A stretch of 64,000 nt of DNA from positions 1,932,501 through 1,996,500 of the forward strand of contig CP016269.1 of assembly GCA_001880285.1 (NCBI GenBank). Reading direction: 5' to 3'. How positions within the stretch are numbered: the first letter of the stretch is position 1; every line of letters begins with the position of its first letter. Positions 9,126-14,676 of the stretch are shown piece after piece. This DNA is from Flavobacteriaceae bacterium UJ101. GTDB lineage: Bacteria; Bacteroidota; Bacteroidia; Flavobacteriales; UJ101. The translations under genes were made by a program, and so were the position numbers. The notes beneath the pieces are model-generated. The model had not been told where the DNA came from. It was given only the letters and a program-made list of their open reading frames with translations, and did not search any database.

Positions 9126-9814
9126 TATTTTGAAATTAATTCTACAAAAACATTTTCTGCAAATTTCTGAGAAACGGTTTCTACTTTCCCATCGAAGGCA
9201 ATTTGTAGTGTGTGATCAAATTTAAAAACATCTTGAACTGTAATTTCTGAACTTAAGATTAATCCTAGTTTAGATACATATTGTAAAAAAGCGATGGAAT
9301 TATCATTTACAGCTACTATTCTACAAGTGTCATGTATCTGTAATTCGGAGAGTTTTAATTTTTTTAGCGTTGCATAATCTCCATCTTGCCCAGGAATAAT
9401 ATCACCATGAGGATCTTTTTTAGGATATCCCATAAAGCGATCCAATTCATCAATTAATTTTTGAGATTTCACATGTTCTAATTGTTCTGCCACTTCATGA
9501 ACTTCGTCCCATGTAAAATTCATGTATTTATATAAAAAAGTTTCCCAAAGACGGTGTTTACGAATAAGGTTTAATGCAATGGCTCTTCCTTCAGTTGTTA
9601 ACTCTAATTTTCCGTAGCGCTCACTTAAAACCCATTGTTTGCTCTTCAATTTTTTAACCATATTATTTACCGAAGCTGGAGATAAAGATAAAAAATCGGC
9701 TAATTGATTGTTCCCAACCTTGTTGTTTAAGTCGCTAGAAGTAAGATGAAATAAGGCTTTTAAATAATCTTCTTCACTTTTTGTTATGTTTGTAGTATTT
9801 AATTTGTTAGTCAT
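9125..9814 (-). CDS. DtxR/MntR-family metal-dependent transcriptional repressor
   Basis: A 229-aa metalloregulator. It has an N-terminal winged helix (about 10-80; LADFLSLSPASVNNMVKKL is the recognition region), a metal-binding/dimerisation domain (about 81-150) and a C-terminal SH3/FeoA-like domain (about 155-229). Candidate ligands are D16, H87, E110, E113 and H114, resembling the MntR set. An in-frame start 60 nt further upstream exists, but it would lie close to the gene's own -7 element, so I chose 9814, giving MTNKLNTTNITKSEEDY. It diverges from the transporter genes and very likely represses them when metal is plentiful; Mn versus Fe specificity is inferred. Confidence 0.9.
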   Translation of the reverse strand: MTNKLNTTNITKSEEDYLKALFHLTSSDLNNKVGNNQLADFLSLSPASVNNMVKKLKSKQWVLSERYGKLELTTEGRAIALNLIRKHRLWETFLYKYMNFTWDEVHEVAEQLEHVKSQKLIDELDRFMGYPKKDPHGDIIPGQDGDYATLKKLKLSELQIHDTCRIVAVNDNSIAFLQYVSKLGLILSSEITVQDVFKFDHTLQIAFDGKVETVSQKFAENVFVELISK

Positions 9815-9834
9815 AACTAACTTTATTATTTTTG
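9803..9834 (+). promoter_or_regulatory. Promoter and putative metal-repressor operator of the ABC-transporter operon
   Basis: TTTG (9803-9806), a 20-nt spacer and TATTTTTG (9827-9834) form an excellent Bacteroidota promoter. The spacer is occupied by the dyad GTTAGT-CATA-ACTAAC (9806-9821), a perfect 6-bp inverted repeat. The same dyad covers the start codon of the divergent repressor gene (9812-9814). Its symmetry and position suit a DtxR/MntR-type operator; that the adjacent repressor binds it is inferred. Confidence 0.7.
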
Positions 9835-9878: not shown

Positions 9879-10670
9879 ATGAGAACTCACTTGGTGAAAG
9901 GTTTATTAATTAGCGTATCAATGTTTTCTATGTATGTAAAAGGACAGGAATATGAGGGATATGGAACTATCATTACAGATCGTCCAGATCAGACGGAATC
10001 TCCTAGTATAGTACCAAAAGGATTTCTTCAAGTAGAAACAGGAGCTTTTTATACGGAAAATGAAGAAGAAGGAGTAAAAAATGAAATCATGACTTATAAT
10101 ACAACGTTGTTGCGTTATGGGATCTCGAAAAATATGGAGTTAAGGCTGGGATTAAATTATGATGAAGATAAAACGAAGTTTAATGGAAGAGAAATAGCGA
10201 AGTCAAGTGGCTTTTCTCCATTGTACGCAGGTTTTAAAATACATGTAGTAGAAGAAAAAGGAATTGTACCACAAATTGGTTTCTTAGGAGGACTAATCCT
10301 TCCTTTTACAGCAGCAGAAGCTTTTAAACCTGAAAAAACAGGATTTACAGGACGTTTTGCATTTACTCATACGCTAAGTGATCGATCTAGTTTATCGTAT
10401 AATTTAGGAGCAGAATGGAATGGAGATGAGACAGGAGCAACCTATCAATATACAGCGGTTTATGGGTATAGTTTTACAGATAAATGGGGTGGATTTGTTG
10501 AAGTGTATGGAGATCTACCAGAAGATAGAACAGCTACTCATTATTGGGATTGTGGTGTAACCTATCTTTTAAAAGATAATATACAATTGGATGTTTCGGG
10601 TGGAACTGGATTTGGAAATGAACAAAATGTATATATAAGTGGAGGTGTAAGTTTTAGATTACCAAAATAA
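9879..10670 (+). CDS. Outer-membrane beta-barrel protein (phenol-degradation MetA-like family), first gene of the metal-uptake operon
   Basis: A 263-aa predicted outer-membrane protein with an N-terminal signal peptide (VKGLLISVSMFSMYVKGQ) and then ITDRPDQTESPSIVPKGFLQVETG. That opening is typical of the barrel family often annotated as MetA-pathway phenol degradation or simply 'transporter'. Alternating hydrophobic/polar strands rich in Tyr, Phe and Gly run to the C-terminal ISGGVSFRL. I chose 9879 because earlier in-frame starts overlap the promoter. It lies 7 bp before the substrate-binding protein gene and under the putative metal operator, so a role as an outer-membrane metal channel is plausible but inferred. 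Confidence 0.8.
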   Translation: MRTHLVKGLLISVSMFSMYVKGQEYEGYGTIITDRPDQTESPSIVPKGFLQVETGAFYTENEEEGVKNEIMTYNTTLLRYGISKNMELRLGLNYDEDKTKFNGREIAKSSGFSPLYAGFKIHVVEEKGIVPQIGFLGGLILPFTAAEAFKPEKTGFTGRFAFTHTLSDRSSLSYNLGAEWNGDETGATYQYTAVYGYSFTDKWGGFVEVYGDLPEDRTATHYWDCGVTYLLKDNIQLDVSGGTGFGNEQNVYISGGVSFRLPK

Positions 10671-10677
10671 TAAAAAG

Positions 10678-11592
10678 ATGAAAAAGTATATTCTATTAGG
10701 AGTAATGAGTTTATTTTTAGCAAGTTGTCAAAATAAGCAGCAATCAAATTCAGGGAAATTGAACGTCGTAACGACGACAACTATGTTAACTGATTTAGTA
10801 AAAAATATAGGAGGTGATGTTATTTCTGTTGAAGGATTGATGGGAAGTGGAGTAGATCCACATTTGTATAAAGCAAGTGAAGGGGATGTTACCAAATTAT
10901 TTAATGCAGATGTTGTATTTTACAACGGATTGCATTTAGAAGGGAAATTGGAAGATGTTTTTGAAAAAATGAAACATCAAAACAAAATAACCATTCCGGT
11001 AAGTGATACAATCAATAAAAAAGAATTAATTTCTTCAGAGGCATTTGCTTCAAATTATGATCCACATATTTGGTTTAACATTGAAAATTGGAAACAAATT
11101 ACACAATATGTAGTTAATCAATTGAAAAAAGAAGATCCTAAGAATGCTTCTGTTTTTGAAGAAAATGGTAAGAAATACTTAAAAAAATTAGAAGAATTAG
11201 AGGGAGAGATTCGAACAGAGATTAATAAATTACCAGAAGAACAACGTATTTTAGTTACAGCGCATGATGCCTTTAATTATTTTGGGAAAGCATATCATTT
11301 TAATGTTGTAGGTTTGCAAGGTTTATCAACGGCCACAGAAGCAGGGGTTCGTGATGTACAAAAATTATCAGACTTTATTATAAAAAATAAGGTGAAAGCC
11401 ATTTTTGTAGAAAGTTCAGTTCCTAAAAGAACAATAGAAGCATTGCAAAAAGCAGTTGAATCAAAAGGGAATAAAGTAGCTATAGGAGGAACTTTATATT
11501 CAGATGCTTTAGGAGATTCAGGTACTATTGAAGGGACGTATTTAGGAATGTATCGATATAACACTAAAACAATTGTAGAGGCATTAAAATAA
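10678..11592 (+). CDS. Manganese/zinc-type ABC transporter substrate-binding lipoprotein
   Basis: A cluster A-I (ZnuA/TroA/PsaA-like) metal-binding protein of 304 aa. The lipobox LFLASC puts the lipidated cysteine at C17, so it is anchored facing the periplasm. Candidate metal ligands are H62 (VDPHLYK), H130 (YDPHIWF), E245 (VESSVP) and D276 (LYSDAL). This His-His-Glu-Asp set, and the lack of the His-rich loop seen in ZnuA, favour manganese over zinc. It is second in the five-gene operon after the barrel gene and is followed 30 bp later by the ATPase. Confidence 0.92.
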   Translation: MKKYILLGVMSLFLASCQNKQQSNSGKLNVVTTTTMLTDLVKNIGGDVISVEGLMGSGVDPHLYKASEGDVTKLFNADVVFYNGLHLEGKLEDVFEKMKHQNKITIPVSDTINKKELISSEAFASNYDPHIWFNIENWKQITQYVVNQLKKEDPKNASVFEENGKKYLKKLEELEGEIRTEINKLPEEQRILVTAHDAFNYFGKAYHFNVVGLQGLSTATEAGVRDVQKLSDFIIKNKVKAIFVESSVPKRTIEALQKAVESKGNKVAIGGTLYSDALGDSGTIEGTYLGMYRYNTKTIVEALK

Positions 11593-11622: not shown

Positions 11623-12363
11623 ATGACTCAAGAAAAAATAGCCATACAAGTAGATGATTTAACTGTTGCGTATAAATACAAACCTGTTTTATGGGATATT
11701 GATTTGAGAATTCCTGAAGGTGTGTTGATGGCCATTGTAGGACCAAACGGGGCAGGAAAATCCACTTTGATTAAATCTATATTAGGTATTATAACACCTA
11801 TTGCAGGTAGTGTGAAAATATACGATAAATCGTATAAAGAACAGCGAAAGTTAGTAGCTTACGTTCCACAAAAGGGAAGTGTTGATTGGGATTTTCCTAC
11901 AACCGCTTTAGATGTAGTTATGATGGGTACATATGGTTCTTTAGGGTGGATTAAAAGACCGGGTCAAAAAGAGAAAAAAATAGCATTGGAAGCATTAGAA
12001 AAAGTAGGAATGTTACCTTTCAAGAATAGACAAATTAGTCAATTGTCAGGAGGACAGCAACAGCGTATTTTTTTAGCAAGAGCCTTGGTGCAAAATGCTT
12101 CAATCTACTTTATGGATGAGCCTTTTCAAGGAGTTGATGCTACTACAGAAAAAGCTATAATTAACATTTTAAAAGAATTACGTAAAGCTGGGAAAACAGT
12201 AATTGTTGTACATCATGATTTACAAACAGTGCCTGAATACTTTGATTGGGTTACCTTTTTGAATGTTAAAAAAATAGCTACGGGACCTGTAGCGACTATT
12301 TTTAATGATGATAATTTAACCAAAACCTATGGTATTAATTATAAGGTGAGTATCCAACAATAA
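11623..12363 (+). CDS. Metal ABC transporter ATP-binding protein
   Basis: The 246-aa cytoplasmic ATPase of the metal importer. It has Walker [10 protein letters not shown], the Q-loop in [13 protein letters not shown], the ABC signature LSGGQQQR, Walker B SIYFMDEP and the switch histidine in VVHHDL. The VDWDFP segment after the Q-loop is typical of the Mn/Zn/Fe chelate (MntB/TroB/ZnuC) branch. It lies between the substrate-binding protein and two permeases with short gaps, so the operon is complete. Confidence 0.94.
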
Positions 12364-12392: not shown

Positions 12393-13523
12393 ATGTCCAT
12401 AACCGATTATATAGAATTAATTTTTACCGATTATACTTTACGGACGATAACATTAGGAACAGCTGTGTTAGGAGCCATTTGTGGAATGTTAGGAAGTTTT
12501 GCTGTATTGCGTAAACAAAGCTTATTAGGTGATGCTATTTCCCATGCAGCATTACCAGGTATAGCCATTGCTTTTTTAGTTACAGGAACCAAAAATGGAA
12601 ATGTATTATTGGTAGGTGCTTTAATTAGTGGCTTAGTAGGCGCCTTTTGGATTCGTGGAATTACACGAAATACCCATCTTAAATCGGATACCGCTTTAGG
12701 GATTATTTTGTCTGTGTTTTTTGGGTTTGGGATGTTACTCTTAACGTTTATTCAAAAACAACCCAATGCCAATCAAGCAGGATTGGATAAATATCTTTTT
12801 GGACAAGCAGCAACACTGATGGAAAAAGATGTGATGATGATGAGTATTGTCATGGGAATATGTTTGATTGTTCTTTTTGTTTTTTGGAAAGAATTTAAAC
12901 TATTGCTTTTTGATGCTGATTATACCAAAACATTAGGCTTTAATATTCAATTTTTAGATATTTTAATTACGTCATTTATTGTGTTGGCTATTGTATTAGG
13001 TTTACAAACAGTAGGTGTCGTGTTAATGAGTGCGATGTTATTAGCTCCGGCAGCAGCAGCTCGACAATGGACGAATAGCTTAGGGATGATGGTTTTTCTA
13101 GCAGCTATTTTTGGTGCTTTTTCAGGTGTTTTTGGAACATGGATTAGTGCAAGTTCCAATCATCTATCAACAGGGCCTGTAATCGTTTTAGTAGCATCTG
13201 TTTTTGTATTGTTTTCCTTTGTTTTTTCACCGAGTAGAGGTTTATTATTTAGAGAGATTCGCTTTATTCAAAATCGTAATGATTTAGAATTACATAAAAC
13301 GTTAACCTTTATGTATCATATAGCAATGGATCATGAAAATCGATCGCATCCACATGCTATAAAAATTTTAAATAATTTTCATGGATTTTCAAGAAAATCA
13401 TTAAGAAAATTAGAAAATAAAGATTGGGTGAAAGTAGAAGGCCAAATGTGGTCTCTAACGGAAAAAGGATATTATGAAGCAGAAAATTTATATAATCAAT
13501 TAAATCAAAACCAAGATGACTAA
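12393..13523 (+). CDS. Metal ABC transporter permease with C-terminal winged-helix-like tail
   Basis: A 376-aa ABC-3 family (ZnuB/TroC-like) permease. The first 285 or so residues contain about eight to nine hydrophobic segments with the family motifs LGDAISHAALPGIAIAF and LMSAMLLAPAAAARQW. Beyond the usual end, residues about 292-376 form a soluble tail (SRKSLRKLENKDWVKVEG, then WSLTEKGYYEAENL). This looks like the helix-turn-helix and wing of DtxR-type regulators and resembles the neighbouring repressor's N-terminus. It overlaps the next permease gene by 8 bp, suggesting translational coupling. Confidence 0.9.
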   Translation: MSITDYIELIFTDYTLRTITLGTAVLGAICGMLGSFAVLRKQSLLGDAISHAALPGIAIAFLVTGTKNGNVLLVGALISGLVGAFWIRGITRNTHLKSDTALGIILSVFFGFGMLLLTFIQKQPNANQAGLDKYLFGQAATLMEKDVMMMSIVMGICLIVLFVFWKEFKLLLFDADYTKTLGFNIQFLDILITSFIVLAIVLGLQTVGVVLMSAMLLAPAAAARQWTNSLGMMVFLAAIFGAFSGVFGTWISASSNHLSTGPVIVLVASVFVLFSFVFSPSRGLLFREIRFIQNRNDLELHKTLTFMYHIAMDHENRSHPHAIKILNNFHGFSRKSLRKLENKDWVKVEGQMWSLTEKGYYEAENLYNQLNQNQDD

Positions 13524-14676
13524 TGCTCAAATTGAAATACAATTAGTGGCTAGTTTAGTAGCAATTGCTTGTGCTATACCAGGAACTTTCTTGGTTTTAA
13601 GAAAAATGGCATTAATTAGTGATGCGATTAGTCATTCTATTTTACCAGGAATTGTAATAGGTTTTTTTCTAACTCATGATTTAAATTCTCCATGGCTTAT
13701 TATTTTTGCGGCTCTTTTTGGAGTCATAACTGTAGTATTGGTTGAGTTTATTCAAAAAACAGGGTTAGTTAAGGAAGATACGGCTATAGGATTGGTTTTT
13801 CCTGCTTTATTTAGTATTGGGGTTATTATGATTGCTAAAAATGCCAATGATGTTCATTTAGATGTAGATGCTGTTCTATTGGGAGAATTGGCCTTTACAC
13901 CTTTTGATCGATTGATTATGAATGAAGTAGATTTAGGACCTAAATCGTTATGGGTTGTAGGAAGTATTTTAATGATGACACTTATTTTATTAATTACGTT
14001 TTTTAAAGAATTGAAACTAAGCACATTTGATGTTGGTTTATCTTCTGCTTTAGGTTTTTCACCTGTAGTGATTCATTATGGTTTGATGACCGTGGCTTCT
14101 GTAACAACTGTTGGAGCATTTGATTCTGTTGGAGCTATTTTAGTGGTTGCTTTAATGATTGCACCTGCTGCAACGGCTTATTTGTTAACAGATAATTTGA
14201 AGAAAATGATTGTTTTAGCAATACTTTTTGGAGTATTTTCTGCTATTTCAGGTTATTGGATGGCCCATTTTTTAGATGCTTCCATTGCAGGATCTATGAC
14301 TACCGTTTTAGGAATCCTTTTTTTACTGGTATATTTATTGGCTCCCAATAGAGGACTATTTTCTGTTTTATACCGTCAAAAACAACAACGTATTGAAGTC
14401 TCGATGTTAACTTTTTTATTGCATTTATCTAATCATAATGAAGAAGAAGAACGGCATGTAAACCACTTAAGAGAACATATCAATTGGCAAAAGGTTCAAG
14501 CACAATCTGTATTAGATTTAGCATTAAAAAACAATATGATATCGATTGATAACGAGGTAGTTTCATTAACAAGAAAAGGAAAAGAATTTACAGCAGAAGC
14601 CATTGATTATATTTTAGATGATAAAAAAGCAGCTATTGAAACGATGAAATCACGATTCTTTTTATTTAGAGGTTAA
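13516..14676 (+). CDS. Second metal ABC transporter permease, also with a winged-helix-like tail
   Basis: A 386-aa ABC-3 family permease with the motifs LISDAISHSILPGIVIGF and VALMIAPAATAYLL; it presumably pairs with the preceding permease as a heterodimer. Residues about 288-386 form a second soluble tail. It runs through MLTFLLHLSNHNEEEERHV, QSVLDLALKNNMISIDN and VSLTRKGKEFTAEAI, again fitting a helix-rich segment followed by a wing and LTxKG motif. It ends the operon, its last 15 bp overlapping the convergent gene on the minus strand. No terminator was seen between them. Confidence 0.9.
   Translation: MTNAQIEIQLVASLVAIACAIPGTFLVLRKMALISDAISHSILPGIVIGFFLTHDLNSPWLIIFAALFGVITVVLVEFIQKTGLVKEDTAIGLVFPALFSIGVIMIAKNANDVHLDVDAVLLGELAFTPFDRLIMNEVDLGPKSLWVVGSILMMTLILLITFFKELKLSTFDVGLSSALGFSPVVIHYGLMTVASVTTVGAFDSVGAILVVALMIAPAATAYLLTDNLKKMIVLAILFGVFSAISGYWMAHFLDASIAGSMTTVLGILFLLVYLLAPNRGLFSVLYRQKQQRIEVSMLTFLLHLSNHNEEEERHVNHLREHINWQKVQAQSVLDLALKNNMISIDNEVVSLTRKGKEFTAEAIDYILDDKKAAIETMKSRFFLFRG

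Follow-up and report, generated by a model that had tools for sequence, protein, structure and literature searches.

Both permeases of a Mn/Zn/Fe-type ABC importer in Flavobacteriaceae bacterium UJ101 carry a C-terminal tail predicted to fold as a winged helix related to those of DtxR-type repressors. The reading we favor, with a probability of about one half, is that these tails sense metal in the cytoplasm and gate the importer accordingly, and that a free MntR-like repressor handles transcription. The window, the whole stretch of DNA analyzed, is 64,000 nucleotides long, and positions below refer to it.

The importer locus and its tailed permeases

The locus consists of a divergently transcribed repressor gene followed by genes for an outer-membrane protein, a substrate-binding lipoprotein, an ATPase, permease 1 and permease 2, in this order:

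9128–9814, minus strand: free MntR/DtxR-type repressor with winged helix, Fe_dep_repr_C and FeoA domains (PF02742, E 6e-30; PF01325, E 1.4e-9; PF04023, E 1.8e-11)
9807–9820, no strand assigned: operator-like palindrome TTAGTCATAACTAA between repressor and operon, of the form TTAG-N6-CTAA
9879–10670, plus strand: outer-membrane protein of the Phenol_MetA_deg family, first gene of the operon (PF13557, E 2.8e-34)
10678–11592, plus strand: substrate-binding lipoprotein of a cluster A-I metal importer (best NCBIfam match AztC, E 2e-64, with MntC/SloC/EfaA similar; all below cut-off)
11623–12363, plus strand: ABC ATPase (best NCBIfam match Mn/Fe ABC ATPase, E 2e-68, under its cut-off)
12393–13523, plus strand: permease 1, 376 aa, ABC-3 transmembrane domain (residues 15–278) and C-terminal tail (PF00950, E 4.4e-75)
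13245–13520, plus strand: permease 1 tail, residues 285–376, juxtamembrane helix and predicted winged helix with conserved H314, (H319), H321, W353, T356 and G359 (AlphaFold2, VIA-align, profile, conservation)
13332–13355, plus strand: permease 1 codons H314 (13332–13334), H319 (13347–13349) and H321 (13353–13355) (aligned-tail conservation)
13516–14676, plus strand: permease 2, 386 aa, ABC-3 transmembrane domain (residues 10–274) and C-terminal tail (PF00950, E 3.4e-51)
14359–14673, plus strand: permease 2 tail, residues 282–386, predicted winged helix with conserved H303, H307, E312, H321, W324, T352 and G355 (AlphaFold2, VIA-align, conservation)
14422–14487, plus strand: candidate metal site of permease 2, codons H303 (14422), H307 (14434), E312 (14449), H321 (14476) and W324 (14485) (aligned-tail conservation)

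Both permeases are ABC-3 metal permeases of the TroCD/MntCD/ZnuB type (PF00950, 253 and 174.7 bits against a cut-off of 20.1) and share their operon with the substrate-binding protein and ATPase. No other ABC-3 permease was found in the same genome. The nearest relatives of permease 1, at 74–80% identity, come from Flavobacteriaceae and other members of the order. The Phenol_MetA_deg gene is also present in about 15 related metal-importer loci, sometimes between the two permease genes, and its product at 9879–10670 is a possible outer-membrane metal pore.

The ABC-3 domain reaches only to residue 278 of the 376 in permease 1 and to residue 274 of the 386 in permease 2, so the tails (about 92 and 105 residues) are real extensions, in agreement with a first-pass annotation of this DNA that had described soluble C-terminal tails past the ABC-3 fold on both proteins. 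The solved family members PsaC and ZnuB have 260–290 residues, and their alignment covers the membrane part only. The tail motifs WSLTEKGYYEAEN and SLTRKGKEFTAEA and the repressor's ELTTEGRAIAL are present as described in that annotation. Many winged helices have a T..G turn following the wing, so the LTxKG motif by itself is weak evidence.

Fold of the tails and relatedness to DtxR

BLASTP comparisons of single sequences lay near noise (tail 1 versus the repressor, E 0.011; tail 2 versus the repressor, E 0.10; tail versus tail, E 0.006), and a single-sequence PDB search with the tails returned chance matches only. Pfam and NCBIfam gave nothing above cut-off for the single tails, with generic winged-helix names appearing only below threshold. 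Tail family profiles were built from 109 related loci that we collected. In profile-profile comparisons, with E-values quoted for single comparisons, tail 1 matched tail 2 at 1e-8 and the winged helix of permease-DtxR fusions at 4e-15, and the free repressors were matched by tail 1 at 7.5e-7 and by tail 2 at 2.9e-6. Against all PDB sequences, the top match of the tail-1 profile was the DtxR-family metalloregulator ScaR (E 3.4e-4); closest to the tail-2 profile were a MarR protein and then IdeR, neither of them significant.

When supplied with the tail alignments, AlphaFold2 predicted the order helix-helix-helix-strand-strand-helix in both tails (pLDDT 87 and pTM 0.77 for tail 1; pLDDT 77.6 and pTM 0.70 for tail 2). 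VIA-align matched the tail 1 model to AF1382 (Z 9.9) and to E. coli MntR 2h09 (Z 9.1), and the tail 2 model best to MarR/PadR proteins (Z 11.0) and also to E. coli MntR 2h09 (Z 10.1). Foldseek, run on the tail models without alignment refinement, gave probabilities of 0.9–1.0 with E-values above 0.01 (none below 0.001); because these E-values are high, the winged-helix claim rests on the topology, the VIA-align Z-scores and the profiles. A winged-helix fold related to DtxR-type winged helices is well supported by these predictions for both tails. The first-pass annotation had named the lack of such a fold as an outcome that would speak against it, and the AlphaFold2 models of both tails are winged helices; its picture of three related winged-helix modules at one locus (the free repressor and two tails) is borne out by the profile comparisons and models. 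Pfam searches found the Fe_dep_repr_C metal-binding/dimerization domain absent from both tails.

Distribution and layouts across relatives

Related loci differ in which permease is tailed. Type A, in which both permeases bear short tails of about 90–105 residues, was found in Flavobacteriaceae and in sequences titled Chloroflexi, Anaerolineales, Tissierella, Spirochaetes, Calditrichota, Acidobacteriota, Gemmatimonadetes, alpha- and gammaproteobacteria and others, and type A' has a tail on permease 2 only (e.g., Poribacteria). In type B, found in Cyclobacteriaceae, Ekhidna, Pontibacter and others, permease 1 has about 430 residues and ends in a winged helix plus Fe_dep_repr_C, and permease 2 is tail-less. 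This full layout of permease, winged helix and DtxR metal/dimerization domain was found in loci L010–L033, L094, L101–L103 and L113. In the window's tail lineage, which spans about a dozen phyla, permease 2 is always short-tailed and permease 1 usually so. An own-family search returned matches in the window's genome only.

In an unrooted FastTree phylogeny of the membrane domains, for which supports are local only, tailed permease 2 proteins clustered in essentially a single group (76 rows, support 100), with two exceptions that run into contig ends, in one case following an in-frame stop. The permease 1 proteins of types A and A' likewise formed one group (78 rows, support 99), and type B was separate. 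The permease 1 tail was lost several times on the tree, and the permease 2 tail showed no clean loss in its clade. We considered a recent truncation of YtgR as the origin of the window's tail and did not adopt this view, as short-tailed permease 1 proteins and their tail-less kin branch apart from type B.

Several loci depart from these layouts in other ways. An Anoxybacillus permease 1 (447 aa, L099:7980–9320) has a long fused tail that has lost the DtxR metal ligands and gives no Fe_dep_repr_C match. An Anaerolineae locus (L097:1478–3723) has permease-2-type tails on both permeases, and in the second the equivalents of E312 and H321 are replaced. The ATPases of type B loci (L010–L033) are extended at the C terminus (about ...LSKIGDLIAKKDFPLRE...), and those of type A are not.

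Conserved residues, possible roles and known systems

Among aligned permease 2 tails, H303, H307 and W324 were present in 61/61, E312 in 60/61 and H321 in 57/61; the corresponding counts in permease 1 tails were 51/52 for H314, 48/52 for H321 and 39/52 for H319. The most informative columns, in tail numbering, were W43, H26, H22 and H40 in permease 2 (ranks 1–4) and W69, H30 and H37 in permease 1 (ranks 1–3). Besides the histidines and tryptophan, the T..G of the wing was among the most informative columns of the short tails. The histidines are kept though the tails share just 20–30% identity across about a dozen phyla. Type B tails are missing these histidines and keep all DtxR-C metal ligands.

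Metal binding would be the simplest reading of the tail histidines. In the mechanism we propose, each permease of the importer would end, on the cytoplasmic side, in a DtxR-related winged helix that no longer serves as a DNA-reading module. The tails would hang beneath the membrane beside the ATPases, where imported metal may bind their conserved histidines; the metal-bound tails would then change tail-tail or tail-ATPase contacts, and high cytosolic metal would slow the transporter by feedback or trans-inhibition. We infer the metal binding, the identity of the metal and the gating of transport. Type A', with a tail on permease 2 only, shows that the candidate permease 2 site can stand alone. 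Importers with fused regulatory domains are well established, as in the trans-inhibition of MetNI and ModABC (PMC10710835).

Located on the cytoplasmic face of a metal permease, the conserved histidines might instead receive the ion on its exit from the permease and hand it on, with no sensing of its level. A winged helix from a sensor/regulator family would be an odd starting point for such a carrier, however, and we regard this hand-over as quite improbable. It is also rather unlikely, if somewhat easier to entertain, that the tails sense nothing and instead stabilize the importer through contacts of the two winged helices with one another or with the ATPase. Winged helices are common protein-interaction modules, and both partners of an obligate pair are tailed here; same-family permeases without a tail function in other systems (e.g., Streptococcus PsaC, ZnuB), which makes the tail an accessory. 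But an assembly role would leave the histidines and glutamate unexplained as the best-kept residues, and fits poorly with the loss of the permease 1 tail in several lineages where that of permease 2 stays.

The principal alternative is that the tails bind DNA in the manner of YtgR, tethered to the membrane or released by proteolysis, and aid the free repressor at the 9807–9820 operator. The tails have the winged-helix fold and DtxR relatedness that such a role would call for, helix 3 and the wing of permease 1 have a net charge of +3, equal to that of the free repressor, and both cleavage and DNA binding are published for Chlamydia YtgC-YtgR (PMC5599777). The recognition helix points the other way. 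The relative conservation of its DNA-facing N-terminal half was 1.15 in free repressors, 0.79 in permease 1 tails, 0.76 in permease 2 tails and 0.56 in type B, where no stretch of the domain is less conserved, in a comparison that spans sets of unequal diversity (mean identity 0.44 versus 0.34). Permease 1 is moreover four residues shorter immediately before this helix. Because of the poor conservation and the shortening, the conserved function of the tails is not obviously sequence-specific DNA reading. The short tails also lack the metal/dimerization domain, and single winged helices on two separate proteins would need to pair.

The locus, in addition, already has a free repressor and its operator. 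In 52 of 77 related loci, TTAG-N6-CTAA adjoins the start of a repressor, binding-protein or outer-membrane gene; it came first among all 256 four-base half-sites, the runner-up, a low-complexity one, reaching 17. The motif recurs across phyla and is common to types A, A' and B, among them loci with no free repressor gene nearby. The window's copy overlaps the start codon of the repressor and falls inside the interval (9806–9821) that the first-pass annotation had named for a DNA-binding test of the tails. The free repressor plausibly controls transcription here, and because this repressor explains the conserved operator, the operator gives no support to DNA binding by the tails, which we consider unlikely; no observation speaks for their release either. 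Of the roles suggested in that annotation, metal sensing is the best fit, with histidines among the most conserved residues, and action on DNA fares badly for the reasons above; its caveat that the tails might lack DNA-binding residues held in part, in that the recognition helix shows less than average conservation.

The comparison with Chlamydia YtgC-YtgR drawn in the same annotation was apt, as such fusions occur in related, more distant Bacteroidota. In Chlamydia the fused DtxR-related domain binds DNA after cleavage (PMC5599777, PMC6504234), and orthologous permease-DtxR fusions have been reported from 11 phyla (cited in the review PMC5599777). Both systems join a metal ABC permease to a C-terminal DtxR-related winged helix, and the type B fusions of Bacteroidota match the layout of YtgC-YtgR. 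The window's locus differs in having tails on both permeases, no metal/dimerization domain in those tails, a free repressor with an operator, and conserved histidines inside the winged helix. The tails set YtgC-YtgR in a wider context: since the fused winged helix of most relatives fails to conserve the DNA-reading helix even where the metal/dimerization domain is intact, its use as a released repressor in Chlamydia may be an exception.

With DtxR/MntR repressors (PF01325/PF02742) the tails share the winged-helix fold and profile-level relatedness, but they lack PF02742, are fused to a transporter, conserve the recognition helix poorly and, beyond the winged helix, show none of the repressor features tested. 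FeoC is a winged helix. Like the role proposed for the tails, its control of the metal transporter FeoB works through protein contact (PMC10710835), but FeoC is a separate small protein with an iron-sulfur cluster and acts through FtsH proteolysis. In MetNI and ModABC a cytoplasmic domain of the importer has likewise been proposed to sense the imported substrate (PMC10710835). That domain has another fold and, as in known trans-inhibited ABC importers, sits on the ATPase, whereas the window's tails are on the permeases; sensing is demonstrated there and proposed here.

Literature on ZnuBC feedback, TroC/TroD winged helices and tailed metal permeases, mostly non-subscription papers, made no mention of these tails or histidines. 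Permease-DtxR fusions were already known; the new element, for which we found no description, is the paired short tails and their histidines. We tentatively suggest, with somewhat less than even confidence, a widespread and undescribed importer class in which permease winged helices were remade from a repressor-type fold into histidine-based sensors gating transport, beside a free repressor sensing the same metal. If so, one fold would serve both arms of metal homeostasis within one operon. Little is known about how Mn/Zn/Fe ABC importers are stopped at the protein level, and the tails offer a short list of residues to mutate. The tail domain is kept in about a dozen phyla, yet no Pfam family covers it.

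In other Bacteroidota families the tail-2 profile gave weak matches that proved to be something else, namely a membrane-anchored DtxR-FeoA protein beside FeoB. Two such proteins (L122:1227–2240, minus strand; L123:1850–2872, plus strand) have one N-terminal transmembrane segment, a winged helix, Fe_dep_repr_C and two FeoA domains, and adjoin a short gene for a FeoB GTPase domain (263–265 aa). They are a second example of a membrane-tethered DtxR module next to a metal transporter.
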